Assembly: GCF_036227325.1 (NCBI RefSeq)
Contig: NZ_CP109467.1
Location: 7,192,001 to 7,256,000, forward strand
Direction: 5' to 3'
DNA from: Streptomyces sp. NBC_01465
GTDB taxonomy: Bacteria; Actinomycetota; Actinomycetes; Streptomycetales; Streptomycetaceae
Length of the DNA stretch: 64,000 nucleotides
Shown here: piece by piece, positions 6,194 through 33,122 of the stretch
Layout of the letters: each line of letters starts with the position of its first letter
Numbering within the stretch: the first letter of the stretch is position 1
Position numbers and translations under genes: made by a program
The notes under the pieces: model-generated
What the model was told of the DNA's origin: nothing
Databases searched by the model: none
What the model saw: the letters and a program-made list of their open reading frames with translations, nothing else

Positions 6194-7036
6194 ATGGCCA
6201 AGGTCGTACGGGCCGCACTCGTCCAGGCAACCTGGACGGGCGACACGGAATCCATGATCGCCAAGCATGAGGAGCACGCCCGCGAGGCGGCCCGGCAGGG
6301 TGCGCAGATCATCGGCTTCCAGGAAGTCTTCAACGCCCCCTACTTCTGCCAGGTGCAGGAGGCCGAGCACTACCGCTGGGCGGAGGCGGTCCCCGACGGG
6401 CCGACCGTCGTCAGGATGCAGGAGCTCGCCCGCGAGACCGGCATGGTGATCGTCGTCCCGGTCTTCGAGCTGGAGCAGTCCGGCTTCTACTACAACACCG
6501 CGGCCGTGATCGACGCCGACGGCACCTACCTCGGCAAGTACCGCAAGCACCACATCCCCCAGGTCAAGGGCTTCTGGGAGAAGTACTACTTCAAGCCGGG
6601 CAACGCGGGCTGGCCCGTCTTCGACACCGCCGTCGGCAAGGTCGGCGTCTACATCTGCTACGACCGCCACTTCCCCGAGGGCTGGCGCCAACTCGGCCTG
6701 AACGGCGCCCAGATCGTCTACAACCCCTCCGCCACCTCGCGCGGCCTCTCCGCCTACCTCTGGCAGCTGGAACAGCCCGCGGCCGCCGTCGCCAACGAGT
6801 ACTACATCGCGGCGATCAACCGGGTCGGCCAGGAGGAGTACGGCGACAACGACTTCTACGGCACCAGCTACTTCGTCAACCCGCGCGGCCAGTTCGTCGG
6901 CGACGTCGCCTCCGACAAGGAGGAAGAACTTCTTGTCAGGGACCTCGACCTGGACCTGATCGAGGAAGTACGCCAGCAGTGGGCGTTCTACCGGGACCGC
7001 CGACCCGACGCGTACGAGGGGCTGGTGCAGCCGTGA
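6194..7036 (+). CDS. Beta-ureidopropionase (carbon-nitrogen hydrolase family)
   Basis: Probably hydrolyses N-carbamoyl-beta-alanine to beta-alanine, CO2 and ammonia, the third step of reductive pyrimidine breakdown. The 280-residue nitrilase-superfamily protein has the Glu-Lys-Cys triad: Glu44 (GFQEVFNAPYF), Lys118 (KYRKHHIPQ) and Cys155 (YICYDRHFPEGWR). The stretch NPSATSRGLSAYLWQLEQPAAAVANEYY is typical of the beta-ureidopropionase and N-carbamoylputrescine amidase branch. AAGGAG lies just ahead of the ATG. It is the first gene of the catabolic operon, and its stop overlaps the next start (GTGA). The family also contains putrescine-pathway enzymes; the neighbouring dihydropyrimidinase favours the pyrimidine role. 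Confidence 0.85.
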   Translation: MAKVVRAALVQATWTGDTESMIAKHEEHAREAARQGAQIIGFQEVFNAPYFCQVQEAEHYRWAEAVPDGPTVVRMQELARETGMVIVVPVFELEQSGFYYNTAAVIDADGTYLGKYRKHHIPQVKGFWEKYYFKPGNAGWPVFDTAVGKVGVYICYDRHFPEGWRQLGLNGAQIVYNPSATSRGLSAYLWQLEQPAAAVANEYYIAAINRVGQEEYGDNDFYGTSYFVNPRGQFVGDVASDKEEELLVRDLDLDLIEEVRQQWAFYRDRRPDAYEGLVQP

Positions 7037-8319
7037 CCGATCAACTCCACGACCGCCACAAGGTAGTTCTGCCCGAGTGGCTCGCGCTGTACTACGACCG
7101 TCCGATCGAGATCACCCACGGCGAGGGCCGCCACGTCTGGGACGCCGACGGCAAGCAGTACCTCGACTTCTTCGGCGGCATCCTGACCACGATGACCGCC
7201 CACGCGCTCCCCGAGGTCACCAAGGCGGTGGCCGAGCAGGCCGGCCGCATCATCCACTCCTCGACCCTCTACCTCAACCGCCCGATGGTCGAACTGGCCG
7301 AGCGCGTCGCCGCGTTGTCCGGAATCCCGGACGCCCGCGTCTTCTTCACCACCTCGGGCACGGAGGCCAACGACACCGCGCTGCTCCTGGCGACCGCGTA
7401 CCGCAGCTCGAACCAGATCCTCGCGATGCGCAACAGCTACCACGGCCGCTCCTTCACGGCCGTCGGCATCACCGGCAACAAGGGCTGGTCGCCCACCAGC
7501 CTCAGCCCGCTGCAGACGCTGTACGTCCACGGCGGGGTCCGCAGCCGCGGGCCGTACGCGCACCTGACCGACGCCGAGTTCATCGCGGCCTGCGTCGCCG
7601 ACCTCGAGGACCTCCTCGGTCACACCCGCGACGTCGCCGCCCTCATCGCCGAGCCGATCCAGGGCGTCGGCGGCTTCACGGCCCCGCCCGACGGTCTCTA
7701 TGCCGCCTTCCGCGAGGTCCTCGACCGGCACGGCATCCTCTGGATCGCCGACGAGGTGCAGACCGGCTGGGGCCGCACCGGCGACCACTTCTGGGGCTGG
7801 CAGGCGCACGGCCAGAGCGGTCCGCCGGACATGCTCACCTTCGCCAAGGGCATCGGCAACGGCATGTCGATCGGCGGGGTCGTCGCGCGCGCCGAGGTCA
7901 TGAACTGCCTTGACGCCAACAGTATTTCGACCTTCGGCGGCTCCCCGGTCACCATGGCGGCGGGCCTCGCGAACCTCACGTACCTCCTCGAACACGACCT
8001 CCAGGGCAACGCCCGTCGCGTCGGCGGTCTGCTCACCGAGCGGCTGCGGGCGATCTCCGCGCAGTCCCCGTTCGTACGGGAAGTACGCGGCCGCGGCCTG
8101 ATGATCGGCATCGAGCTGATCAAGCCGGGCACCGACGAGGCCAACCCGGCGGCGGCATCGGCCGTCCTGGAAGCAGCCCGCGAAGGCGGCCTCCTCCTCG
8201 GCAAGGGAGGCGGCCACAACACCAGCGTGCTGCGGATCGCACCCCCGCTCACCCTGACCGTCGCCGAGGCCGAGGAAGGCGCCGCGATCCTCGAACAGGC
8301 GCTGCGCACGCTCTGTTGA
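7033..8319 (+). CDS. Class III aminotransferase (probable beta-alanine/3-aminoisobutyrate aminotransferase)
   Basis: PLP enzyme of 428 residues that should move the amino group of beta-alanine to a keto acid, giving malonate semialdehyde. It starts at a GTG that overlaps the previous stop by four bases, implying translational coupling. Visible family marks: TTSGTEANDTALLLA (phosphate binding), SYHGRSF, IAEPIQGVGGF, WIADEVQTGWGRTG with the cofactor Asp, and the Schiff-base lysine Lys272 in LTFAKGIGNGM. Length matches the omega-amino acid aminotransferase and alanine-glyoxylate aminotransferase 2 group. The position between beta-ureidopropionase and dihydropyrimidinase supports beta-alanine as substrate. 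Confidence 0.87.
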   Translation: MTDQLHDRHKVVLPEWLALYYDRPIEITHGEGRHVWDADGKQYLDFFGGILTTMTAHALPEVTKAVAEQAGRIIHSSTLYLNRPMVELAERVAALSGIPDARVFFTTSGTEANDTALLLATAYRSSNQILAMRNSYHGRSFTAVGITGNKGWSPTSLSPLQTLYVHGGVRSRGPYAHLTDAEFIAACVADLEDLLGHTRDVAALIAEPIQGVGGFTAPPDGLYAAFREVLDRHGILWIADEVQTGWGRTGDHFWGWQAHGQSGPPDMLTFAKGIGNGMSIGGVVARAEVMNCLDANSISTFGGSPVTMAAGLANLTYLLEHDLQGNARRVGGLLTERLRAISAQSPFVREVRGRGLMIGIELIKPGTDEANPAAASAVLEAAREGGLLLGKGGGHNTSVLRIAPPLTLTVAEAEEGAAILEQALRTLC

Positions 8320-8353
8320 CACGCCAATCGCGCCCACGGAAGGAGAGGAAGCA

Positions 8354-9754
8354 ATGAGCCGTACTGTCATCCGGGGCGGTCTGGTCATCACCGCCGCCGA
8401 CGAGATCCACGCCGACGTCCTGATCGAGGACGGCACCATCGCCGCCCTCGCCACGAGCGGCACCGAAGCCGCCGCGGCCTGGACCGCCGACCGCACCATC
8501 GACGCGACGGGGAAGTACGTGATCCCCGGCGGAGTCGACGCGCACACCCATATGGAGATGCCGTTCGGCGGCACGTACGCGGCCGACACCTTCGAGACCG
8601 GGACCCGCGCGGCGGCCTGGGGCGGCACCACCACCATCGTCGACTTCGCGATCCAGTCCAAGGGCCGCTCGCTGCGCGAGGGCCTCGACGCCTGGCACGC
8701 GAAGGCGGCGTCGAACTGCGCCGTCGACTACGGCTTCCACATGATCGTCTCCGACGTCAACGAGGACACCCTGAAGGAGATGGACCTCCTCGTCGACGAG
8801 GGCGTCACCTCCTTCAAGCAGTTCATGGCCTATCCCGGCGTCTTCTACAGCGACGACGGCCAGATCCTGCGCGCCATGCAGCGTGCCGCCGACAACGGCG
8901 GGCTGATCATGATGCACGCCGAGAACGGCATCGCGATCGACGTCCTTGTCGAACAGGCCCTCGCACGCGGCGAGACCGACCCCCGCTACCACGGCGAGGT
9001 CCGCAAGGCGCTCCTGGAGTCCGAGGCCACCCACCGCGCCATCAAGCTGGCGCAGGTCGCGGGCGCACCGCTGTACGTCGTCCACGTATCGGCGCAGGAA
9101 GCGGTCGCCGAGCTGGCGCGCGCCCGCGACGAAGGCCTCAACGTCTTCGGGGAGACCTGCCCCCAGTACCTCTTCCTCTCCACCGACAACCTCGCCGAGC
9201 CGGACTTCGAGGGCGCGAAGTACGTCTGCAGTACGCCACTTCGCCCCAAGGAGCACCAAGCCGCCCTCTGGCGCGGACTGCGCACCAACGACCTCCAGGT
9301 GGTCTCCACCGACCACTGCCCCTTCTGCTTCAGCGGACAGAAGGAGATGGGCCGCGGCGACTTCTCCAAGATCCCCAACGGGATGCCGGGCGTCGAGAAC
9401 CGCATGGACCTCCTCCACCAGGGCGTCGTCGACGGCCACATCAGCCGCCGCCGCTGGATCGAGATCGCGTGCGCCACACCGGCCAGGATGTTCGGCCTCT
9501 ACCCGAAGAAGGGAACCATCGCACCGGGCGCCGACGCCGACATCGTCCTCTACGACCCGCAGGCGGAGCAGGTCATCTCCGCCGACACCCACCACATGAA
9601 CGTCGACTACTCGGCCTACGAGGGCAAGCGCCTCACCGGCCGCGTGGACACGGTCCTCTCCCGCGGTGAACTCGTCATCACCGACCGGGAGTTCACCGGG
9701 CGTGCAGGACACGGGGTCTACACCCCGCGCTCCACCTGTCAGTACCTCATCTAG
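8354..9754 (+). CDS. hydA: Dihydropyrimidinase
   Basis: Opens the ring of dihydrouracil or dihydrothymine to the N-carbamoyl-beta-amino acid. The 466-residue amidohydrolase shows the metal motif DAHTHMEM, the lysine carboxylated to bridge the two zinc ions (Lys155 in VTSFKQFMAYPG), His in MMHAENG and VVHVSAQ, and STDHCPF with the catalytic Asp. GGAAGGAGAGGAAG gives a strong ribosome binding site. D-hydantoinase and allantoinase are the near relatives; the neighbouring ureidopropionase and aminotransferase make the pyrimidine role most likely. Third gene of the operon, 34 bases after the aminotransferase. Confidence 0.92.
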   Translation: MSRTVIRGGLVITAADEIHADVLIEDGTIAALATSGTEAAAAWTADRTIDATGKYVIPGGVDAHTHMEMPFGGTYAADTFETGTRAAAWGGTTTIVDFAIQSKGRSLREGLDAWHAKAASNCAVDYGFHMIVSDVNEDTLKEMDLLVDEGVTSFKQFMAYPGVFYSDDGQILRAMQRAADNGGLIMMHAENGIAIDVLVEQALARGETDPRYHGEVRKALLESEATHRAIKLAQVAGAPLYVVHVSAQEAVAELARARDEGLNVFGETCPQYLFLSTDNLAEPDFEGAKYVCSTPLRPKEHQAALWRGLRTNDLQVVSTDHCPFCFSGQKEMGRGDFSKIPNGMPGVENRMDLLHQGVVDGHISRRRWIEIACATPARMFGLYPKKGTIAPGADADIVLYDPQAEQVISADTHHMNVDYSAYEGKRLTGRVDTVLSRGELVITDREFTGRAGHGVYTPRSTCQYLI

Positions 9755-13541: not shown

Positions 13542-16500
13542 TCAGCCGCAGCTCTTGTCCGGCTTCAGCGTGAAGTTCTGGGTGACGGTGGAGAGTTTGA
13601 CGAGCTTGGCGGTACGGGCCTGGGGGGCCCAGCCGTCCTTTGCGGCGATGAGTTGGAGCGGGTTGTTGCGCACGTCCAGCCACATGCCGTACTGGCCGTT
13701 CGCGTCGGTCTTCAGGGTGAAGCTCTGCGCCCAGCTGTCGATCTGCAGGGTCGCGCCCTTCAGGCCGGCCGTCGCGCCGGTGCACGGCGCCCCGCTGACC
13801 GTCCCGGCGAGCTTGCCCCAGGTGGACGGCGGGTTGACCGTCATGGTCACGTCGATGGGGGCGTACGCGTACGGCGTGTCCTCACCGACCGCCAGCAGTG
13901 CGGAGTAGGCGCCCGGCTGGGCGATCTCGCTGCCCGAGGCGTCCGTCGTGACGTTGACGACCGCGGAGGCGCCCGGAGCGAGCGTCACCTCGGTCCGGTC
14001 CTCCGACAGCCAGCTGACGTCCGAACCGCTGGAGCAGTCGCCGTAGCCGGGCAGCAGCTCGGCGGTGTCGACGGGGTTGAAGCCGCCGATCGAGCCGCCG
14101 ACCCGGTAGAAGCCGCAGGCGCTGCCGCCGCGGTAGACGGTGTTGTTGGAGTTGGGCAGGGCCGTCCAGGTGCCCGCGGCCGGGTCGTAGGAGATGCCCG
14201 CGTTGGTCAGGGTCGAGGTGCCGTTGGTGACGCCGCCGGAGAGCAGCAGCCGGCCGTTGGCCCCGGTGGCTCCCATGGCCCACAGGTCCATGGGCATGTC
14301 GGCGACCGGCGTCCAGCTGTCGGCGGAGGCGTCGTAGGAGTAGGCGTGCTTGGTGGTGGCGGTGCCGTTGGTGCCGCCGGCGCAGTAGAGGGTGCCGTTG
14401 ACGCCGCCGCAGCCGAGCCATGCGGTGATCTCGGGGTAGTCGGCGCCGGCGCTCCAGGAGTTGGTGGCCGAGTCGTAGATCTGCACGTTCTTGACCCCGC
14501 AGGCCGTGGTGCAGCCGCCCACGACGTACCACTTGCCGTCGACGACCGCCGAGCCCGCGCCCGCGAATCCCTTGGGGATGCTCGCGCCGGTGGACCAGGA
14601 GTTGGACGACGGGTCGTAGATCTGCGTGGTGGTGACATTGGCACCGGACTCGGCCCAGCCGCCGGTCAGATACAGCTTGCCGCCGAAGAACGCCGAGACG
14701 GGTGCCTCGCGCGGGGTGCCGTTGTCGGCGATCGCCGACCAGGAGGTGGTCTCCGGGTTGTAGACGTAGCCGCTGGAGCTGAACGTGGTGCCCGAGACGC
14801 CGTCGACGGAGTAGACCTTGCCGTCGTCGCCGGTGGCGACCGCGTTGTCCATCAGGGCCGCGGGCAGGTTGGCGATCGAGGTCCACGGCGGGGCCGCGGG
14901 CGTGACCGGCGGGGTCACCGCGGTCCTGCCCTTGGCCGGGTCGATGAACCCGGGATCGTAGTCGCCCTTGATCTCCGTCAGTTCGGCGCCGGCGCCACGT
15001 GCCTTGATGACGAAGCCCTTGTCCTGTTCGGACAGCTTGACCTTGGCGGTGGCGGTGCCGGTGTTCTTGACGGTGACGGCCTTGGTCTTGGCGCCCTGCC
15101 AGGCCACCGTGTTGCCGACGGTCGTCGGCGAGATCGACAGCCGTCCGGCGGCCAGCTTGATGTCGGCGGTGGTCGCCGCGTTCGACGCGATACGGACCGA
15201 CTTGCTCGCGGCGGTGTAGTTGCCCGCCGTGTATCCGAGCGGGTGGCTGCCGGTCAGGGTCGAGTAGAACCAGTAGAAGCCGTCACCCAGGGCCGCGTCG
15301 TCGGGTGTGGCGATGGTGGTGGCGCCCTCGGCCGGCTTGTCGGTGCTGACGACCTGCGCACCGGCGATACCGCTCTTGGTGTTCTTGTCGGTCACCTGGC
15401 CGAGGACCAGGCCGCCGGGCGTCGGGTCGCAGGAGCGGTCGCCGACGAAAACGTTGTCGACCTCCCACCAGTACGCGAAGTGCCCGTTGTAGTGGAAGCG
15501 GATCTGGACGGCGCTCTTGCCCGCCGCGGCCGACAGGTCCACCAGCTCGGTCCGCGGGCCGAGGCGGCTCACGGTCGTCCAGTGGCTGGCGGTGGTCCAG
15601 GTGGTGCCGCCGTCGGTGGTGTAGTCGACGTCGGCGTAGCCGTTGGAGTAACCCTTGTAGTCGCTGGCGAACTGCACGATCGGACCGGTCGTGTTGCTGA
15701 AGTCCAGGACGGGGCTGACCAGGGACGTGTCCTCGGTGTAGGCGCTGCCGGCGAGGTCGCTGTCGGCGATGGCGAAGGCGCCGGAGCCGCCGGTGTGGTT
15801 GGTGCGCGGCTTGGCGTCGGTGAAGGTCCACGCCTTGCCCTGGCCGGGGGTGTCGACGATGGTCCAGCCGGCGGGCGGCGTCGTGCCGGTGGCCGAGGAG
15901 AAGTCCTCCGTCGTACCGCCCTTGAAGTTGTACTGGTATCCGGCCGCGCTGCAGGTGGAGGCGTCGACCTTGACGCCGAAGTCCTGGGAGACGGACGTGT
16001 CGGCGACAGCGATGTCCTGGCTCGCCGGCGTGTAGCCCGGGTAGGAGGAGAGGGCCTCGACGGTGTACGTGTCGTCCACCGGGACGCTCAGCGTGTAGGC
16101 GCCGGTGGCCGGATCGGTGTGGACGGCGCTGGTCGGCTCGCCCTTGATCTGTACGGTGGCGTAGAGCGGCCAGCCGTGCCCGGAGCCGTCCTTGACGCTG
16201 CCGGTGATCTCGACCCGGTCCTTGGCGGTGAGCGCCGCGTCCTCGGTGACGCTCTGGCCGTCGGCCAGTGTCACACCGGCGACGGTCTTGACGGCGTAAC
16301 CGAACTTGCTGAACTTCACGTCGTAGGTGCCCGGTTCGACCGACAGCGTGTAGGCGCCGGTGGCGTCCGTGGTGGCGCCGGAATCACCCGCCGTCACCTT
16401 CACCCCGGCGAGGGGTGTGCCGCCGGAGGAGTCCGTGACGGTGCCCTTGACGAGGGCGTGCGGCCCGGACGAGAAGGCCGTGATGCCGGCGGGGGTGCCG

Positions 16501-17768
16501 AGACCCGTCGGACCGTCGTAGCCGGTGGTCCCGGTGCACAGGTAACTGCCGCCGCAGGAACCGTTGGTGCCCGAGGTGACGTCGTTGAGCGCCGCCGGCT
16601 TGGCGTACGGGTACGTCATCGGCTGGGAGCCGGAAGCCGGGGTGCCGGCGAGCGCGTACACGGAGGCGATGATCGGCGCCGAGACGCTGGTGCCGCCGTA
16701 GACGTGCCAGGCGCCCGCGTTGTAGACGGCGACCCCGGTGGAGGGATTGGCGACCGCGGAGACGTCGGCGACGGTGCGCTTGTCACAGCCGCTGTCGGAC
16801 TGCACGGCGGGCTTGGGCTCGTAGGCGGAGCAGCCGCTGCCCGCGCCCGACCAGACCGTCTCGGACCAGCCGCGCGTCGAGGCGTCCTTGACCAGCGAGG
16901 TGCCGCCGACCGAGGTGACGTACGGGGAGGCCGCCGGATAGCTGACGCCGTAGCCGTCGTCGCCGCTGCTCGCGGTGACGGCGACGCCCGGGTGGTTGAA
17001 GTAGGCGCTGTCGTACGTCGACTCGTCGGAGCCCTCGCCGCCTCCGTAGCTGTTGGAGACGAACTTGGCGCCCTGGGCGACGGCCTGGTTCACGGCCGCG
17101 CCCAGGTTCTCCATGTAGTTGTCGTCCGCCTCCACGAGCAGGATGTGGCAGTTGGGGCAGGTGGCCGACACCATCTGGATGTCGAGCGCGATCTCCGCGC
17201 CCCATCCGGCGTCGGCGACGGGGTAGTCGGTGCCGCCGCGCTGGTCGATCTTCTTGAAGCAGCCGTTGGCGGTGGTGCAGGCGGAGAGCCCGTACTGGGT
17301 GCGGTACGTGGCCAGTTCGGCCTCGGCATCGGGGTTGTCGAAGGCGTCGACGATGGCGACGGTCTGGCCGCCGCCGTTGGTCGAGGACGGCAGGCTGTAC
17401 GCGCTCTGCAGGGACGACGGGCCGAAGCCGGCCGGGTCGGCCGACGGGTCGGCCTCCTGCGCCGCCTTCAGCTGCGCCTTCGTCTGCTTGACGTCATCGC
17501 GGATCTGGGTGAGACAGCCTGCGGTCCCGGCCTTCTGCGCGACGGCGCAGGCGCGGTGCGAGGGGTGGTCGCCGACGTCCTTGGCGCTGGTCGCATTGGT
17601 GGTGGTCGGGTCGGGGGTCTTGCTCGCCGAGGCTGCGGCGGCGGGTGTGGCGGCGGTGGCCGCCTGCGCGGGGTACTGAAGGGACAGTACGGCCAGTGCC
17701 GCCACGGCGCCGGACGCGATGAAGCGTGCTGCCACGCCGGGGGATCTCTTGCGTCTCATGGATCTCAA
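13542..17768 (-). CDS. Giant secreted S53 (sedolisin-type) peptidase with regulatory-like and Kelch domains
   Basis: Secreted serine-carboxyl peptidase of 1408 residues. A signal peptide (MRRKRSPGVAARFIASGAVAALAVL) is followed by a short linker and the S53 catalytic domain, about residues 110-430. Catalytic residues are Glu192 and Asp196 (WGAEIALDIQMV), Ser361 (YGGTSVSAP) and an oxyanion Asp in SSGDDG. No full-length (about 180-residue) sedolisin propeptide is present. Next come carboxypeptidase-regulatory-like beta modules (from about 435), a choice-of-anchor/MAM-like module (about 623-780), another regulatory-like module, a Kelch beta-propeller (about 961-1250; repeats such as GKLYLTGGWAESGA and GKWYVVGGC), and a final regulatory-like module. 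A TTG at 17768 is chosen because AAGGAG sits 8 bases upstream; ATG 17759 is the alternative. Gap 17769-17941 shows no convincing promoter. Confidence 0.85.
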   Translation of the reverse strand: MRSMRRKRSPGVAARFIASGAVAALAVLSLQYPAQAATAATPAAAASASKTPDPTTTNATSAKDVGDHPSHRACAVAQKAGTAGCLTQIRDDVKQTKAQLKAAQEADPSADPAGFGPSSLQSAYSLPSSTNGGGQTVAIVDAFDNPDAEAELATYRTQYGLSACTTANGCFKKIDQRGGTDYPVADAGWGAEIALDIQMVSATCPNCHILLVEADDNYMENLGAAVNQAVAQGAKFVSNSYGGGEGSDESTYDSAYFNHPGVAVTASSGDDGYGVSYPAASPYVTSVGGTSLVKDASTRGWSETVWSGAGSGCSAYEPKPAVQSDSGCDKRTVADVSAVANPSTGVAVYNAGAWHVYGGTSVSAPIIASVYALAGTPASGSQPMTYPYAKPAALNDVTSGTNGSCGGSYLCTGTTGYDGPTGLGTPAGITAFSSGPHALVKGTVTDSSGGTPLAGVKVTAGDSGATTDATGAYTLSVEPGTYDVKFSKFGYAVKTVAGVTLADGQSVTEDAALTAKDRVEITGSVKDGSGHGWPLYATVQIKGEPTSAVHTDPATGAYTLSVPVDDTYTVEALSSYPGYTPASQDIAVADTSVSQDFGVKVDASTCSAAGYQYNFKGGTTEDFSSATGTTPPAGWTIVDTPGQGKAWTFTDAKPRTNHTGGSGAFAIADSDLAGSAYTEDTSLVSPVLDFSNTTGPIVQFASDYKGYSNGYADVDYTTDGGTTWTTASHWTTVSRLGPRTELVDLSAAAGKSAVQIRFHYNGHFAYWWEVDNVFVGDRSCDPTPGGLVLGQVTDKNTKSGIAGAQVVSTDKPAEGATTIATPDDAALGDGFYWFYSTLTGSHPLGYTAGNYTAASKSVRIASNAATTADIKLAAGRLSISPTTVGNTVAWQGAKTKAVTVKNTGTATAKVKLSEQDKGFVIKARGAGAELTEIKGDYDPGFIDPAKGRTAVTPPVTPAAPPWTSIANLPAALMDNAVATGDDGKVYSVDGVSGTTFSSSGYVYNPETTSWSAIADNGTPREAPVSAFFGGKLYLTGGWAESGANVTTTQIYDPSSNSWSTGASIPKGFAGAGSAVVDGKWYVVGGCTTACGVKNVQIYDSATNSWSAGADYPEITAWLGCGGVNGTLYCAGGTNGTATTKHAYSYDASADSWTPVADMPMDLWAMGATGANGRLLLSGGVTNGTSTLTNAGISYDPAAGTWTALPNSNNTVYRGGSACGFYRVGGSIGGFNPVDTAELLPGYGDCSSGSDVSWLSEDRTEVTLAPGASAVVNVTTDASGSEIAQPGAYSALLAVGEDTPYAYAPIDVTMTVNPPSTWGKLAGTVSGAPCTGATAGLKGATLQIDSWAQSFTLKTDANGQYGMWLDVRNNPLQLIAAKDGWAPQARTAKLVKLSTVTQNFTLKPDKSCG

Positions 17769-17941
17769 CAGCCGTTCTCCTTGTGGGAGTTGAATGGATG
17801 GTGAGGTTGGTTCCGACTCGCCCCAAAGGTCCCGGGCGCACGGGGTGCGTACAGAAGTGGAGACTGCGTGCCCGGTACATGTGACGGGTGTGGAGATCCT
17901 TGCATCGAGAGAGGTGTGTGTGGCGGTGATGTTTGACAGGT

Positions 17942-19713: not shown

Positions 19714-20538
19714 TCAGTCCTTGACCGCGCCGGCGGTCACGCCGGCGGCGACGTAGCGCTGGGCGAGGACGAGGATGACCGCGGCGGGGAGTGAGGCCAC
19801 GACCGCGGTGGCCATGATGGCGTTCCACTCCTGGTTGTTGTTGCCGATGTAGTGGTAGATGCCGAGCGTGATCGGCTCGTGCGCACCGCCGTTGACCAGC
19901 GTGCTGGCGAAGATGAAGTCGGACCAGGACCACAGGAAAGCGAAGAGCGAGACGGTGACGACCGCGTTGCGGCTGATCGGCATGACGATCGACCAGAAGG
20001 TGCGGAAGGGGCCCGCACCGTCCGTCTTCGCCGCCTGGAGCAGTTCGCCGGGGATCCCGGACATGAACGCGGTGAAGATCAGCACCGCGAACGGGACGGC
20101 CAGGGTGGAGTCCGCGACGATCAGGCCGGGCACGGACTGCAGCATGCCCAGGCTGAGGTAGATGGCGTAGAAGCCCATCGCCATGATGATGCCGGGGATC
20201 ATCTGCGCGGCCAGCAGAACGAAGCTGAGGACTCCACCGCCGCGCGGGCGGAGCTTGGCGAGCGCGAATCCCGCGGGTGCGGACAGGACCAGGGTCAGGG
20301 CGACGGTGCCCAGGCCGATGACGAAACTGGTGGAGAGGTAAGGGAGTTGCTCGTCGAGCACGGTCCGGTATCCGGTCAGGGTGCCGTGCAGAGGGAACAG
20401 GTCCGGTGGGCTCTTGCGCATGTCCTGGTCGCGGGTGAAGGAGACGTTCACCATCCAGTAGACGGGGAACAGCATGATCCCCGTCAGCAGGACACCGACC
20501 GCGGTCTTTCCCCAGTGACGCTTTCCGCTTCGAGTCAT
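19714..20538 (-). CDS. Sugar ABC transporter permease (MalG type)
   Basis: Inner-membrane permease of 274 residues with about six membrane helices. The EAA-loop equivalent that contacts the ATPase is LLQAAKTDGAGPFRTFWSIVMPI. The N-terminus (GVLLTGIMLFPVYWMVNVSFT) and the C-terminus are typical of carbohydrate uptake family 1. Its ATG overlaps the stop of the partner permease (ATGA), showing translational coupling. No ATPase is encoded in the locus; a shared MsiK-type ATPase encoded elsewhere normally serves such importers in Streptomyces (established knowledge). Confidence 0.93.
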   Translation of the reverse strand: MTRSGKRHWGKTAVGVLLTGIMLFPVYWMVNVSFTRDQDMRKSPPDLFPLHGTLTGYRTVLDEQLPYLSTSFVIGLGTVALTLVLSAPAGFALAKLRPRGGGVLSFVLLAAQMIPGIIMAMGFYAIYLSLGMLQSVPGLIVADSTLAVPFAVLIFTAFMSGIPGELLQAAKTDGAGPFRTFWSIVMPISRNAVVTVSLFAFLWSWSDFIFASTLVNGGAHEPITLGIYHYIGNNNQEWNAIMATAVVASLPAAVILVLAQRYVAAGVTAGAVKD

Positions 20539-21494
20539 GACAGCTCCTGCCTGCGCTGCACGCGGAGGTAGATCAGGCCGAAGACCAGCGCGGCGACGAC
20601 GAGGAGGTTGCCGACGGCCGCCCCCGGGCCGAAGGCGGGCAGCAGATTGCCGAAGCCGAGCTGGTACGACCAGGTGGCGAAGGTCGTGGACGATTCCGCG
20701 GGGCCGCCTTTCGTCATGATCCAGATGATGTCGAAGACCTTGAGCGTGTAGACGAGCCCGAGGAGCAGGGTGATCGCGGACACCGGGCGCAGGAGCGGGA
20801 AGGTGATGCTCCAGAAGCGGCGCCAGGGGCCCGCGCCGTCGAGGGAGGCCGCCTCGTACAGGACCGCCGGGATCGACTGCAGGCCGCTGTAGAGCACGAC
20901 CAGGTTGAACGGGACGCCGATCCAGATGTTCGCGATGATCACCGAGGTCAGCGACCAGGTGGGCGCCGTCAGCCAGTTGACCGGGTCGATGCCCGCCGCG
21001 TGCAGGGCCGCGTTGACGATGCCCGAGTCGCTGTTGAGCATCCACGACCAGGTGGAGGCCGACACGATCAACGGCAGCAGCCAGGGCACCAGGAACAGGG
21101 CCCGCAGGGTGGCGGAGAGCCGGAAGTGCTGGGTGAAGAAGACCGCGAGGGCCAGGCCGATGGCGTACTGGAAGATCAGGCAGACGGCGGTGAACACGAC
21201 GGTGTGGAGCAGCGCGGGGGCGAAGGTGGGGTCGTCGAAGACGGTCCGGTAGTTGGCCAGCCCGGTGAAGGGGGCGTTGCCCTGGACGAAGGAGCGGACG
21301 GTGTAGTTGCGCAGGCTCAGGTCGAGGTTGCGGTAGAGCGGATAGGCGTAGAAGAGGACGAGGTAGAGGGTGACGGGGGTGAGGAAGGCCCAGGCGGCCA
21401 GCTGCTGGGAGCCGGGGCGGCGGCGGGCGCGGGGCGGTGCGGCGGGTGGTGCACCGCTGCGGCGGGGCAGCGGTGCGTCCGTGGTGCGGCTCAT
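20535..21494 (-). CDS. Sugar ABC transporter permease (MalF type)
   Basis: Membrane permease of 319 residues, partner of the MalG-type protein. After a basic, Pro/Arg-rich N-terminal tail it has six membrane segments, beginning LAAWAFLTPVTLYLVLFYAYPLY. The EAA loop reads YEAASLDGAGPWRRFWSITFPLL. ATG at 21494 is chosen (MSRTTDA) with AGGG about 9 bases upstream; the longer reading frame overlaps the binding-protein gene and is rejected. Only 20 bases separate it from the binding-protein stop. Confidence 0.92.
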   Translation of the reverse strand: MSRTTDAPLPRRSGAPPAAPPRARRRPGSQQLAAWAFLTPVTLYLVLFYAYPLYRNLDLSLRNYTVRSFVQGNAPFTGLANYRTVFDDPTFAPALLHTVVFTAVCLIFQYAIGLALAVFFTQHFRLSATLRALFLVPWLLPLIVSASTWSWMLNSDSGIVNAALHAAGIDPVNWLTAPTWSLTSVIIANIWIGVPFNLVVLYSGLQSIPAVLYEAASLDGAGPWRRFWSITFPLLRPVSAITLLLGLVYTLKVFDIIWIMTKGGPAESSTTFATWSYQLGFGNLLPAFGPGAAVGNLLVVAALVFGLIYLRVQRRQELS

Positions 21495-21514: not shown

Positions 21515-22771
21515 TCACTTGACCGCTGACTGGGCGGCGGAGAGGGCGTCCTTCGGGGACTTCGAGCCGCTGAGCGCGGACTGGACCGCCTTCCACAACT
21601 GCTCCGAGATCTTCGGGTACTTGGTGCCCAGGTCGTCACTGGTCCGGCCCTTGGCCGCCTTGACCGCCGCCACCCACGGCACGAGGTCCGGCGTGGCCGC
21701 CGACTGCTTCTGCTGCACCTCGGCGGTGGGGGCGACGTAGGAGAGCGTGGTGTCGGTGTCGTACAGGTTCTGCGTGCTCGTCAGGCAGGTCGCGAGCTTC
21801 TGCGTCGTCGCGTAGCGGGCGGTGCTGCTCTGGACGGGAAGCGTGACGAACTCGCCGCCGGTGGGGGCCGCGGCGCTGCCACCGGCGGCGCCGGGTATGG
21901 GCAGGACGCCGTAGTCGAATCCCGCCTTCTTCGCGTTGGCGAGCTGCCAGGTGCCGTTCTCGCTGAACGCGTAGCTGCCGGTCGCGAACTCCTGCCAGCT
22001 GGTGGTCTGGGTGTTGTTGAGTACGGAGTTGGGGGCGTAGCCCTTGGCCAGCCAGTCCTTCCACAGCGACAGCGCGGAGACGGCCGCGGGGGAGTCGACG
22101 GCGGTGAGCTTCGCGCCCGCGCCCCAGAACCACGGCAGGAACTGGAAGCTGCCCTCCTCCGTGCCGATCGCGGAGAAGGTGATGCCCTTCTTGCCCGCGC
22201 TCTTGACCTTCGCCAGCGCCGCGGTCAGCGACGGCCAGTCCTTGACCGTGGTGATGTCGACCCCGGCCGCCTTCAGGATCGTCTTGTTGTAGTAGAGGGC
22301 AAGGGTGTTGGCGCCGATCGGGGTGCCGTACGTCTTGCCGGCCGACTGTCCGGCTGCGAGGAGGTTGGGGTCCACGGCCGAGGTGTCGAGCTTGTTGTCG
22401 GCGGTCGTGGTGAGCACGCCCGCTTCGGCCAGGGTGGAGACCACCGGGTTGTCGACGATGAGGACGTCGGGGGAGTTGTCCTGCTGTGCGGCGAGAAGCG
22501 CCTTGCCCGCCAGGTCGCTGGTGTCGAAGCCGGTGCGCTTGATCTTCACGCCGGCCTTGGTGCCGCAGGCGTCGAGGAGCTTGGTCCAGGCCGAGCCCTT
22601 GGCGAACTGTGGGTAGGGGTCCCAGACCGTGTACGTACCGCTGTCCGACGCCTTCGACCCGGTGGATCCCGAGCCGGAGCCGCAGGCGGTGGCGGTGAGA
22701 GTGAGGGTGAGGGGCAGGGCCAGGGCGGTGAGGGCTGCGGTGCTGATCCGCCGTGAGGGGGAGCGTTTCAT
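21515..22771 (-). CDS. Sugar ABC transporter substrate-binding lipoprotein
   Basis: Extracytoplasmic binding protein of 418 residues. The N-terminus is a lipoprotein signal (KRSPSRRISTAALTALALPLTL, then TATACGSGSG, with the Cys as probable lipid anchor). The mature part is a family-1 carbohydrate binder: SPDVLIVDNPVVSTLAEAGVL, YGTPIGANTLALYYNKTIL, WQEFATGSYAFSENGTWQL. It captures the oligosaccharide for the two permeases downstream. AAAGGAA precedes the ATG. The ligand cannot be predicted; the nearby GH63-like enzyme and secreted glycosidase suggest fragments of a complex glycan. Confidence 0.92.
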   Translation of the reverse strand: MKRSPSRRISTAALTALALPLTLTLTATACGSGSGSTGSKASDSGTYTVWDPYPQFAKGSAWTKLLDACGTKAGVKIKRTGFDTSDLAGKALLAAQQDNSPDVLIVDNPVVSTLAEAGVLTTTADNKLDTSAVDPNLLAAGQSAGKTYGTPIGANTLALYYNKTILKAAGVDITTVKDWPSLTAALAKVKSAGKKGITFSAIGTEEGSFQFLPWFWGAGAKLTAVDSPAAVSALSLWKDWLAKGYAPNSVLNNTQTTSWQEFATGSYAFSENGTWQLANAKKAGFDYGVLPIPGAAGGSAAAPTGGEFVTLPVQSSTARYATTQKLATCLTSTQNLYDTDTTLSYVAPTAEVQQKQSAATPDLVPWVAAVKAAKGRTSDDLGTKYPKISEQLWKAVQSALSGSKSPKDALSAAQSAVK

Positions 22772-23847: not shown

Positions 23848-23868
23848 GGCGGCTCCTTGAGCGGGATA

Positions 23869-23880
23869 CGAACCGGTTCG
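23869..23880. promoter_or_regulatory. LacI operator copy 1 (CGAACCGGTTCG)
   Basis: Perfect 12-base palindrome in the leader of the LacI gene, 62 bases from copy 2. Together with copy 2 it could support looping or roadblock repression of the regulator-transporter operon. Recognition by the neighbouring LacI protein is inferred from position and symmetry. Confidence 0.8.
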
Positions 23881-23930
23881 GCGCCGGTTGCGGGGAAGTG
23901 AGGCGGTGCGGGAGGCGAGGGCTCGGTCGT

Positions 23931-23980
23931 CGAACCGGTTCGCGTGAAGTGACGGTAGGAAGAGGCCGATCGGCTGTCAA
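23931..23980 (-). promoter_or_regulatory. Promoter of the LacI-ABC operon with operator copy 2
   Basis: On the minus strand, -35 TTGACA (23980-23975), a 17-base spacer, -10 TACCGT (23957-23952), then the palindrome CGAACCGGTTCG (23942-23931) at the expected transcription start. This is the classic layout for steric repression. The 362-base gap 23848-24209 holds only this promoter, the opposing promoter and four operators. Confidence 0.75.
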
Positions 23981-24041
23981 CAGGCCGGGACGAACTTTCG
24001 AAACGTTGCGGCGGCTGACCGAACTCCCGTTGCGAGAGGGA

Positions 24042-24085
24042 TTGTTGGCCCGGTCTCGCGGTGCTAGCTTCCTCGAACCGGTTCG
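24042..24085 (+). promoter_or_regulatory. Promoter of the secreted glycosidase with operator copy 3
   Basis: Plus strand, -35 TTGTTG (24042-24047), 17-base spacer, -10 TAGCTT (24065-24070), then CGAACCGGTTCG (24074-24085) over the expected start point. This mirrors the opposing promoter and indicates joint control of the secreted enzyme and the importer. Confidence 0.7.
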
Positions 24086-24150
24086 ACGGAGCGATCCTTC
24101 CGCCGGTCGGCCCCTCCCTGTGCGCCCCTGGCCGCTGTGGCGCACTTGCG

Positions 24151-24162
24151 CGAACCGGTTCG
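24151..24162. promoter_or_regulatory. LacI operator copy 4 (CGAACCGGTTCG)
   Basis: Fourth perfect copy of the palindrome, 77 bases downstream of copy 3 and 47 bases before the glycosidase start codon, inside the mRNA leader. Confidence 0.8.
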
Positions 24163-24209
24163 ACTTGCGCCAACTCCCTGCCCCGACCACAGGATTGAGG
24201 ACGCAATCC

Positions 24210-27916: not shown

Positions 27917-29485
27917 TCAGCAGCCGCGTACGTCCTTCGTCAGCACTCCCTGCTCCGTCGCCAGCGTGCGGTCGTAGCACGTGCCGGGAGCGCGCAGCCG
28001 GTAGTGCTCACCGGTCGTGGCCACCGCCTTCCGGTCCTCGCGGGCGACGTTGAGGGTGAAGGCGGCGTCACCGTTGTAGGTGTCGTCGATACGGGTGGCG
28101 CCGATCCGTGCGTGGTCGCCGATGGACATGATCACGCGCAGCCGGTCGGCGCTGTCGATGGTGAAGCGGCCGTCGAGCGTGTAGGTGCGATCGGTGCGGG
28201 AGACATGCCCGTTGGTGGTCACGGCCTGGCGGTCGGTCCACTTCCCGGTCTGGTTGTCGACGGTCTCGTCCGGCGTCCACTGGTGGTCGATCGCCGTGGT
28301 GAGGGCCCGCTCGACCGTCGTGGTGACCCGGCCGTGGGAGGTGTTGACGTAACCGCTGACCTTCAGACGGTCGGCGCCGTCGGTCGCCAGATGCCGCTGC
28401 GTGCCGTCGGTGAAGGTGTTGTGGACCGCAGGATCGGCCTTCTCGTACGAGGTCAGGGCCCCCGTCACCACCGACTTGTGCGCGTCCTGCCACACCAGGA
28501 TGTTCGTCGGCGCGCTCCACCCGGACTGCCCGGCCGGAACCCCGGCGACCGACACGTCGACCGAGTGCGCCTTGCCGTCGTTGAGCAGACCCGCGTACGG
28601 GGTGAGGTCGACGGTCAGCGGCCGCACGTCGAACGCGGTGGGCGAGGGAATCACCGACCACAGATACGGCGAACCGCCGCCCGTCCACACATTCGGGTAC
28701 GGCGAGGCGATCCCGGCGACCTTGCCGTCGACGCTCACCTGCACCTCGCGGTACGGGCCGCTGTCGCCGGCCTGGCAGGAGTACGAGGCGTCGGGGGTGG
28801 TCGCCGAGTACCAGAACTCCTCGCAGCCGCCGCCCGATCCGGTGGCGTACACCTCGGCGAGGATCCGCTCGGAGTTGCGCGGCGTGGTCAGCGAGGTGCC
28901 GAGCGGGATGACCTGGTCGGGGACGGAGGAGGCGGCGCGGGCGGAGCCGTGGGCGGCGTAGAAGGTGAGCGTCACCTTGACGTCGAAGATGCCCGTGTAG
29001 GTGTCGTTGACAACGTTACCTATGAGCATGCTGACGGGCTGGGGGCTGCTCAGGGTCTTCTCGTACTGGGTCACGTCCTTCTCGACCGACCAGTTGATCC
29101 CGTCCTGCGAGGGCTCGGGCGTGGACGTACGGAAGATGTGCACACCTCCGATGTCCAGATACCCGAGGCGGTCGTACTGCCGCCCCTTCACGTTCCCGTC
29201 CATCCGCAGAACCACCTTGGACCAGCGCCCGGGGGAGCCGCAGGCGGTGGGCGGGGTGTAGGTGCCGGTGTACGGGGTGAAGTCCTTGAACTGCGCCTCC
29301 GCGACCGTGACCGAGCACGACTTGGTGTGCGGCGTGGCGATGGGCGGGGCAGCGGTCACGGGGTCGTGGTAGTCGGTCCCGAACACCGGCGGAACGGTGA
29401 CCGCGGAGGCGGGGGTACCGCTCACGGCCAGTCCGAGAGCGGCGAGCAGGCTGGTCAGCAGCATCGTGGATCTCATGCGTCTCAT
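27917..29485 (-). CDS. Secreted peptide-N-glycosidase A-like amidase
   Basis: Secreted protein of 522 residues resembling peptide-N4-(N-acetyl-beta-glucosaminyl)asparagine amidase A, which releases whole N-glycans, including core alpha-1,3-fucosylated plant ones. After a signal peptide (MRRMRSTMLLTSLLAALGLAVSG...ASA) it shows the characteristic N-terminal run CSVTVAEAQFKDFTPYTGTYTPP and GRWSKVVLRMDGNVKGRQYDRLGYLDIGGVHIFRTSTPEP, and later FDVKVTLTFYAA. Length is near the plant and fungal enzymes. The start could be either of two closely spaced ATGs (29485 or 29476); no clear ribosome binding site is visible. It is convergent with the LacI-controlled glycosidase and 65 bases downstream of the ferredoxin reductase, with no CGAACCGGTTCG site. 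Confidence 0.82.
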   Translation of the reverse strand: MRRMRSTMLLTSLLAALGLAVSGTPASAVTVPPVFGTDYHDPVTAAPPIATPHTKSCSVTVAEAQFKDFTPYTGTYTPPTACGSPGRWSKVVLRMDGNVKGRQYDRLGYLDIGGVHIFRTSTPEPSQDGINWSVEKDVTQYEKTLSSPQPVSMLIGNVVNDTYTGIFDVKVTLTFYAAHGSARAASSVPDQVIPLGTSLTTPRNSERILAEVYATGSGGGCEEFWYSATTPDASYSCQAGDSGPYREVQVSVDGKVAGIASPYPNVWTGGGSPYLWSVIPSPTAFDVRPLTVDLTPYAGLLNDGKAHSVDVSVAGVPAGQSGWSAPTNILVWQDAHKSVVTGALTSYEKADPAVHNTFTDGTQRHLATDGADRLKVSGYVNTSHGRVTTTVERALTTAIDHQWTPDETVDNQTGKWTDRQAVTTNGHVSRTDRTYTLDGRFTIDSADRLRVIMSIGDHARIGATRIDDTYNGDAAFTLNVAREDRKAVATTGEHYRLRAPGTCYDRTLATEQGVLTKDVRGC

Positions 29486-31283: not shown

Positions 31284-33122
31284 ATGACGCTGGCGCCAGC
31301 ACCCCCGTACAGAAGCCGGCACCGGAGCATTCGGCGTGGTCTGACCGCCGCGTTGATCACCGCTGCCACTGTGCTGCTCCCGGTCACTGCCGCCGGGGCG
31401 GCACCGACCGGGACCGCAGTCGCTGCCGCGTCCCCCACGCTGAACGAACTGGCCGCGGCCAAGGGCCGCTACTTCGCCTCGGCCACCGACAACCCCGAGC
31501 TGACCGACACCTCGTACACCGCCACCCTGGGCAGCGAGTTCGGGCAGATCACGCCCGGCAACTCGATGAAGTGGGACACCACGGAGCCGCAGCGCGGCCA
31601 GTTCAGCTTCGCCAAGGGCGACGCGGTCGTCAGCTTCGCGCAGGCGCACGGCCAGGACGTACGCGGCCACACCCTGGTCTGGCACAGCCAATTGCCCGGC
31701 TGGGTCTCCGCGCTTCCCGCGAGCGAGGTGCGCGCGGCCATGGAGAGCCACATCGCCGGTGAGGCCGGTCATTACAAGGGCCGGATCAAGGCCTGGGACG
31801 TGGTCAACGAGCCGTTCAACGACGACGGGACGTACCGGACCTCGCCGTTCTATAACGCGATGGGCAAGGACTACATCGCCTACGCGCTGCAGGCCGCCCA
31901 CGCCGCGGACCCGGGCGCGAAGCTCTACATCAACGACTACAACACCGACGGTCTCGGCGCGAAGAGCGACGCCATGTACAACCTGGTCAGGGACCTGAAG
32001 GCGCAGGGCGTGCCCATCGACGGCGTGGGCTTCCAGGCCCATCTGGCCGTCCAGTACGGCTTCCCTACGCAGATGCAGCAGAACCTCCAGCGCTTCGCCG
32101 ACCTCGGCGTGGACGTGGCCGTCACCGAGCTCGACGTACGGATGGTGCTGCCCGCCGACGCCACGAAGCTCGCGGCACAGTCCGACTACTACCGCCGGGT
32201 CACCGAGGCCTGCCTGGGCGTATCCCGCTGCGTCGGGATCACGATCTGGGACTACACGGACAAGTACTCGTGGGTCCCGGGCACCTTCTCCGGCCAGGGG
32301 CTGGCCTGCCTGTGGGACGCGAACCTCCAGCCGAAACCGGTGCTCGACGTGGTGCGTACGGCACTTGGTGCCACTGGAAGCGGTGATACGACAGCGCCGT
32401 CGGTGCCTGCGGGCCTGACGGTGACCGGCACGTCGTCGTCGTCGGTGTCGCTGTCGTGGACGGCTTCGACCGACAGCGTCGGGGTGACGGGCTACGACAT
32501 CTTCCGTGGTGGCACGCAGGTGGGTTCCTCGACGGGCACGTCGTTCACCAACTCGGGTCTGTCGGCGTCGACTTCGTACAGCTTTACCGTGCGGGCGAAG
32601 GATGCTGCGGGCAATGTGTCCGCTCAGTCGTCGCCGGTGACGGGGGCGACCACCGCCGGTTCAGGTGGTGGCGGCTCGCTCAAGGTGCAGTACAAGAACA
32701 ACGACTCCGCGGCCGGGGACAACCAGATCAAGCCCGGGTTGCAGCTGGTGAACACGGGCAGCGGCGCGGTCGCACTGTCTTCGGTGAAGATCCGTTACTG
32801 GTTCAGCGGTGAGGCGGGTTCCTCGAACTACTCGGCATGGTGCGACTACGCGGTCGTCGGCTGCGGGTCCCTGAGCCAGTCCGTCAGCTCCTCCGGCTCG
32901 TCCACGGCAGGTGCCGATCATTACCTCGAAGTCGGCTTCTCCTCCGGGTCGTTGGCGGCCGGGGCCTCCTCGGGCGAGATGCAGTTGCGGTTCGCCAAGA
33001 GCGACTGGTCGAACTTCAGCGAGGCCGACGACTACAGCCGGGGTACCAACACGTCCTTCGCGGACGCCCCGAAGATCGGCGTCTACGTGAACGGCACGCT
33101 CGTCTGGGGCGCCGCCCCCTAG
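31284..33122 (+). CDS. Secreted endo-1,4-beta-xylanase, GH10 + FnIII + CBM3
   Basis: Secreted xylanase of 612 residues. Signal peptide about 1-39; GH10 barrel about 48-355 with acid/base Glu176 (WDVVNEPF) and nucleophile Glu282 (VTELDVR), and the substrate motif GHTLVWHSQLPGW; FnIII module about 370-455; C-terminal CBM3 about 465-612 (KVQYKNNDSAAGDNQIKPGLQL ... DWSNFSEADDYS). CBM3 binds crystalline cellulose, keeping the xylanase on plant walls. GGAGAGAGGA lies near the ATG. It is directly controlled by a CebR box and is the first of four similar modular enzymes. The FnIII-CBM3 part is nearly identical in sequence to that of the GH6 gene. Confidence 0.93.
   Translation: MTLAPAPPYRSRHRSIRRGLTAALITAATVLLPVTAAGAAPTGTAVAAASPTLNELAAAKGRYFASATDNPELTDTSYTATLGSEFGQITPGNSMKWDTTEPQRGQFSFAKGDAVVSFAQAHGQDVRGHTLVWHSQLPGWVSALPASEVRAAMESHIAGEAGHYKGRIKAWDVVNEPFNDDGTYRTSPFYNAMGKDYIAYALQAAHAADPGAKLYINDYNTDGLGAKSDAMYNLVRDLKAQGVPIDGVGFQAHLAVQYGFPTQMQQNLQRFADLGVDVAVTELDVRMVLPADATKLAAQSDYYRRVTEACLGVSRCVGITIWDYTDKYSWVPGTFSGQGLACLWDANLQPKPVLDVVRTALGATGSGDTTAPSVPAGLTVTGTSSSSVSLSWTASTDSVGVTGYDIFRGGTQVGSSTGTSFTNSGLSASTSYSFTVRAKDAAGNVSAQSSPVTGATTAGSGGGGSLKVQYKNNDSAAGDNQIKPGLQLVNTGSGAVALSSVKIRYWFSGEAGSSNYSAWCDYAVVGCGSLSQSVSSSGSSTAGADHYLEVGFSSGSLAAGASSGEMQLRFAKSDWSNFSEADDYSRGTNTSFADAPKIGVYVNGTLVWGAAP

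Follow-up and report, generated by a model that had tools for sequence, protein, structure and literature searches.

The DNA analyzed here is a 64,000-nucleotide stretch of contig NZ_CP109467.1 of Streptomyces sp. NBC_01465 (positions 7,192,001 to 7,256,000), called the window below, in which a regulatory gene of the LacI/GalR family (lacI) and the gene of a secreted multidomain enzyme with a GH39-like catalytic domain diverge from a 362-bp gap (Table 1). The gap separates the predicted operon of a sugar importer, headed by lacI, from the glycosidase gene, and it contains four exact copies of the palindrome CGAACCGGTTCG, named operators 1 to 4; each divergent promoter with its leader is referred to as an arm. 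A previous sequence-only reading had reported exact copies at 23869, 23931, 24074 and 24151, with second copies lying 62-77 bases into the leaders; all four were recovered, and the distances were measured as 62 bp in the LacI arm and 77 bp in the glycosidase arm. The genome (9,138,776 bases in a single contig) has no exact copy besides these four, and the reversed pattern used as a control gave 0 exact matches in it. Shuffled windows contained a mean of 0.02 exact copies and none of 100 shuffles reached four, which, along with the genome-wide count, rules out a chance origin of the four sites. Allowing up to one mismatch, there were 84 matches in the genome (the four exact ones included) against 19 for the reversed control; since such copies are common, weight was given only to exact copies and clusters, and the one-mismatch copies of the genome were left out as evidence of further targets. 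When two mismatches were allowed, the window gave 10 matches for 7.7 expected, i.e. no excess.

Conservation was evaluated in the best 80 of 179 confirmed related loci, all of them from Streptomyces and with LacI identities of 86-92%. At least one exact site was present in the gap upstream of lacI in 80 of 80 loci. With the window included (81 loci), exact sites numbered four in 20 loci, three in 39, two in 21 and one in 1, while with up to one mismatch there were four in 36, three in 36 and two in 9, with 240 exact sites in this total of 270. This sameness is partly built in, the sites having been picked at one mismatch or less; a weaker flanking T before and A after the site were not selected. 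The sequence-only reading had also placed operators 2 and 3 just downstream of -10/-35 elements on opposite strands, and the elements are as it described and are conserved across loci: TTGACA-17-TACCGT (minus strand) ends 9 bp before operator 2 and TTGTTG-17-TAGCTT (plus strand) ends 3 bp before operator 3. On the LacI side, TTGACA-17/18-TAnnnT ending 8-10 bp before the site was seen in 80 of the 81 loci (the exception being L068). On the glycosidase side, TTGCTG and TAGCTT, each with up to one mismatch, were found 0-5 bp before the site in 67 of the 81, and the best-scoring -10 element ended 2-4 bp before the operator in 73. As the promoter forms had been taken from these same loci prior to counting, these figures describe conservation and do not constitute a blind test. 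A generic sigma-70 scan of the gap, which demands at least four of six matches to TATAAT, detected neither promoter because both -10 elements match it at 3/6 only; support for the promoters comes from their conservation across loci and not from the generic scan. The location of operators 2 and 3, overlapping or directly following the predicted start points, fits the position of a repressor.

The gene divergent to lacI was also compared in the 80 loci. A relative of the secreted enzyme at the level of at least 79% was found there in 53 loci and a 58-60% relative in 5; in L072 and L094 the relative was just below 79%, in L049 and L086 only a short piece matched, and L075 and L081 end at a contig edge. 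In 16 loci there was no such relative, and one of them, L040, carries a GH31-family enzyme instead (PF01055, positions 6491-8863 of that locus) next to the same operators and importer. The secreted partner of lacI is not fixed across loci. Nine open frames, chosen by eye in eight loci among the divergent genes without a close relative of the enzyme, were scanned and gave matches only in L040 (GH31), L102 (a carbohydrate-binding module, CBM, in an already known 59% relative) and L077 (pentapeptide repeats, probably unrelated to the system).

The distance between the promoter operator and the leader operator of each arm was analyzed in 121 upstream regions of 480 bp, 116 of them distinct, comprising the window, the 80 loci and 40 of 68 other close lacI copies or pieces, these 40 being chosen by us with preference for the more divergent ones. 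Among the distinct regions, the promoter operator could be typed on the LacI side in 114 and on the glycosidase side in 88, and a leader operator with up to one mismatch was present in 84 and 56 of these arms, respectively. In both arms the distances form classes about one helical turn apart, at 28.4, 39.2, 50.2, 62, 76, 81.4 and 92.3 bp in the LacI arm (the window being the sole member of class 62) and at 57, 66, 79.3, 86.7, 100, 111.4, 121.4, 129, 132 and 173 bp in the glycosidase arm. Taking classes as units and a period of 10.5 bp, R was 0.65 for the LacI arm and 0.71 for the glycosidase arm, with p values of 0.008-0.025 (according to class width) and 0.0005, respectively, under a null that keeps classes apart. 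Considered jointly, the two arms had a best period of 10.6 bp (range tried, 6-20 bp), and 0 of 3000 null draws equalled the joint phasing, either at 10.5 bp or at the best period within 8-14 bp. The mean phase was around 8.3 bp in the LacI arm, close to the optima of lac O1-O3 and gal, and around 4.8 bp in the glycosidase arm; at 10.5 bp per turn, the 62 and 77 bp of the window deviate from the mean phase of their respective arms by no more than 1.5 bp. Shared history of the classes is the remaining risk, met in part by a test on a tree of the LacI genes of the 80-locus set, done with the 59 + 46 loci having exactly one leader site: 15 spacing changes in the LacI arm and 14 in the glycosidase arm mapped near whole turns, with mean cosines of 0.83 and 0.74 (p 0.002 each). 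What is new is that, from one species to another, same-arm spacing changes by steps of some 10.6 bp, and this helical phasing points to a loop, or to cooperative binding, inside each arm.

To what extent the site accompanies the regulator was evaluated in 295 genomes sampled from Streptomyces, 54 of which have a LacI copy at or above 83% (some cut by contig ends), the next LacI class being at 62-65% and occurring alone in 3 further genomes. Exact sites averaged 4.6 per genome (minimum 2) where the gene was present and 1.6 in the 241 genomes without it, 49 of which had none. Two sites separated by 125-155 bases were found in 42 of the 295 genomes (0 for the reversed control), corresponding to 39 of the 54 with the gene, leaving 15 with no pair at such a distance, versus 3 of the 241 without it. 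In these three (G097, G139 and G281) all pairs are located no further than about 350 bp from the end of a contig, so the neighboring lacI may have been cut off. Isolated exact sites are common (at least one in 246 of 295 genomes) and 25 of the 30 loci L005-L034 lack a LacI helix-turn-helix signature, according to a word pattern of ours applied to at most 1.5 kb of flanking sequence per side; single sites were therefore treated as background. The search for the site across Streptomyces against the LacI orthologue, suggested with the sequence-only reading, has thus given a palindrome kept at all 80 orthologous loci compared and a site number that tracks the LacI gene.

These results make it likely that the LacI-family protein acts locally as a repressor of both arms, its own included, with paired operators acting together. 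A more specific proposal, for which we regard the arguments as evenly balanced, is that of a two-armed machine in which a tail-less LacI would close a separate short loop at each divergent promoter, the loops varying mainly by whole turns under selection. Several observations weigh against the reading of a repressor with paired operators. There is no typed glycosidase promoter in 28 of the 116 distinct regions, and no leader operator was found within 480 bp in 30 of the 114 typed arms on the LacI side and 32 of the 88 on the glycosidase side, from which it follows that the leader operator is not essential. Under a plain uniform null the single-arm phasing is weaker (p 0.043 for the LacI arm and 0.004 for the glycosidase arm), and R drops to 0.61/0.57 in the other genomes, compared to 0.91/0.78 in the 80-locus set. 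The glycosidase arm is out of phase with the lac/gal optimum by about 3 bp, and the distance between operators 2 and 3 is unphased at 10.5 bp (R 0.15); its best free period, 12.1 bp (R 0.76), is left uninterpreted. The protein also lacks the C-terminal tail of Escherichia coli LacI: no counterpart of the tetramerization tail appears in the alignment with 1lbg, which covers the chain as far as residue 324 (of 360) and the query as far as residue 326 (of 336), the tetramer tail of 1lbg lying beyond residue 324. Finally, an 87% LacI copy of genome G107 (L176) has no site with up to one mismatch within 480 bp upstream, and is perhaps a copy that lost its own control. The other close copy of that genome (L182) carries three sites.

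The missing leader copies and the missing tail would suit plain repression without loops, in which RNA polymerase would be stopped at the promoter operators, with the leader copies serving as independent roadblocks or spares. We consider this unlikely, although worth keeping in sight, since helical phase would be irrelevant for independent roadblocks, whereas the same-arm spacings are phased; it is for this reason that loops are preferred over roadblocks.

The identity of the protein binding the site also has to be weighed, and in this respect the claim of a self-contained regulon of one LacI protein appears to hold for the genome studied here, with one close LacI copy and four exact sites, all beside it, but not for all the others. 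Two or three close copies occur in 12 of the 54 genomes with the gene, and they have the site in common, given that both members of the same-strain pairs L041 and L067, and L060 and L113, carry sites; a site with up to one mismatch lies upstream of close LacI copies in 115 of the 116 distinct regions. The 62-65% class shares it too: of seven loci read, five have a site with up to one mismatch upstream (two of them exact), one has a two-mismatch site and one has none. These facts, and the 83 LacI candidates seen in a first look at this genome, of which 7 were scored, leave a small place for another LacI-family paralogue as the main binder. We regard this as very improbable, because a single match in this genome reaches E 1e-120 and the four exact sites are beside it. 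Least credible of all is a role of the protein as activator of one arm, a role that members of the LacI family can have, as GalR does at OE on gal P2 (PMC4693257), for although the -35 element of the glycosidase promoter is weak, operators 2 and 3 sit on or just after the predicted starts, as would suit repression.

From the sites, promoters, conservation, co-occurrence and phasing described, we infer a scheme for the repressor with paired operators that covers its binding, the looping, the repression, the substrate and the inducer. A LacI dimer would bind CGAACCGGTTCG at the transcription starts of the two divergent promoters, blocking on one side its own operon, i.e. lacI, the binding protein, the two permeases and the probably intracellular hydrolase, and on the other the gene of the secreted GH39-like enzyme. 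The leader operator, at a fixed helical phase to the promoter operator, would allow two bound dimers to act together, most likely through a short DNA loop as with GalR in gal. The secreted enzyme would free a small L-arabinose-containing sugar, probably a disaccharide, which the importer would take in and the hydrolase would split, and this sugar or its product may release the repressor. The regulatory unit is real, conserved, well-bounded and of a known kind, and its unexpected feature is the phase-keeping operator pairs in both arms.

Table 1. Features of the lacI-glycosidase locus, in positions of the window.
Feature	Position	Strand	Domains or location	Remarks
MGH1-like glycoside hydrolase, 578 aa	17942..19678	-	PF22422	start computed from P0121 length
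ABC permease 2	19714..20538	-	PF00528	start codon by eye
ABC permease 1	20535..21494	-	PF00528	start codon by eye
Extracellular sugar-binding protein	21515..22771	-	PF13416; 65-bp gap to lacI	start codon by eye
LacI/GalR-family regulator (lacI), 336 aa	22837..23847	-	PF00356, PF13377	GTG start
Operator 1	23869..23880	.	lacI leader, 62 bp downstream of operator 2	exact copy
Operator 2	23931..23942	.	predicted transcription start of the LacI-side promoter	exact copy
Predicted promoter of lacI and importer operon	23952..23980	-	TTGACA 23975-23980, 17 bp, TACCGT 23952-23957	sequence
Predicted promoter of secreted glycosidase	24042..24070	+	TTGTTG 24042-24047, 17 bp, TAGCTT 24065-24070	sequence
Operator 3	24074..24085	.	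predicted transcription start of the glycosidase promoter	exact copy
Operator 4	24151..24162	.	glycosidase leader, 77 bp downstream of operator 3	exact copy
Secreted multidomain enzyme, 1217 aa	24210..27863	+	LamG, Big_4, GH39-like catalytic domain ~336-760, CBM-like C-terminal part	

Regarding the proteins, the LacI helix-turn-helix (PF00356) scored 61.1 bits for a cut-off of 27 and its ligand domain, similar to periplasmic binding proteins (PF13377), 99.8 bits for a cut-off of 26.5. The MGH1-like hydrolase is probably intracellular, no signal peptide being seen when its sequence was inspected by eye. Its structure model was too poor to be used (mean pLDDT 48) and its best sequence match among solved structures, 2z07, titled as an uncharacterized protein, covers 85 residues and does not settle the substrate. 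Secretion of the 1217-residue enzyme was judged by eye from its N-terminus, and its two CBM matches are under the Pfam cut-off. Its catalytic domain is related in both fold and sequence to a GH39 structure. The Pfam GH39 profile does not match the protein of the window at E 0.1 and matches 2 of 15 alignment members, at best with E 0.037. Two glutamates, E468 and E584, are kept in 95 of 95 alignment rows, and we take them to have the catalytic roles on the basis of the NEP and NEY motifs and the alignments. No characterized close relative of this enzyme was found.

Structure 5u22 is titled N2152, from Neocallimastix frontalis, and, judging by the name only, would be NF2152. According to one report, NF2152 is a GH39 alpha-L-(beta-1,2)-arabinofuranobiosidase of solved structure, its Bifidobacterium relatives free disaccharides from arabinogalactan, and the residue at subsite -2 is Tyr in AAfase and Asn in GAfase (PMC10688797). 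Tyr415 of the window protein aligns with this position, by our own counting on the alignment, and is to be taken as a lead only. Because of this alignment and the NF2152-type relatives, we propose, with low confidence, that the substrate or released sugar may be an arabinose-containing disaccharide. Two points call for caution: L040 has a GH31 partner, and 8uwt bears a title apparently concerned with xylan utilization.

Other genes of the window surround the system. A PNGaseA-domain protein (27917-29485, minus strand; PF12222, 229 bits) is convergent to the secreted glycosidase, and the window scan gave no exact operator near its gene. A long open frame (13542-17804, minus strand) appears, from its translation inspected by eye, to encode a secreted, repeat-containing protein whose N-terminal part is peptidase-like, and another (31284-33122, plus strand) resembles by eye a secreted xylanase with a fibronectin-type and carbohydrate-binding part.

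In a literature search over 5.39 million papers, with most subscription papers outside it, the 12-mer was absent, its inner 10-mer occurred in 8 papers, none of them, by title, dealing with a bacterial sugar regulator, and no Streptomyces LacI with such a system was recognized, judging from the listings. The analysis provides a Streptomyces LacI-family regulator with a highly conserved site, its promoters and a bounded regulon, i.e. a ready pair of test promoters, and suggests what class of substrate the conserved secreted GH39-like enzyme is likely to act on. With the helical phasing, whether a LacI protein without a tail forms loops outside E. coli could be tested on natural spacings (27-94 bp and 57-173 bp); if the two-armed proposal is true, natural variation would already contain the phasing experiment done by hand in lac and gal.

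In gene content, the locus resembles the Bifidobacterium GH39 GAfase/AAfase clusters, which are reported to contain, alongside GH39, a regulator of the LacI type, ABC permeases together with a solute-binding protein, and another hydrolase (PMC10688797); this other hydrolase is GH36 there and MGH1-like here, in another genus, and the comparison is by description only. It is likewise by description that the regulator can be likened to the bifidobacterial AbfR, AauR, BauR1 and others, presented as local LacI-family repressors of genes for arabino-oligosaccharides and ABC transporters, a control predicted by comparative genomics (PMC5928203). With E. coli lac (LacI, O1/O2/O3) it shares a promoter operator accompanied by auxiliary operators, and the LacI arm is about in phase with O1-O3, whose 92-bp spacing sits on a repression peak (PMC1762422); E. 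coli LacI is tetrameric, and no counterpart of its tail was seen in the alignment of the protein considered here. E. coli gal (GalR, OE/OI) has in common with this system a LacI-family protein, a dimer per operator and paired operators, and repression there depends on the helical phase, the optimal spacings being 103, 113, 123 and 133 bp (PMC4693257). Unlike gal, the system described here has four identical operators serving two divergent promoters, and the looping we propose would take place within each arm, where one operator pair is located.
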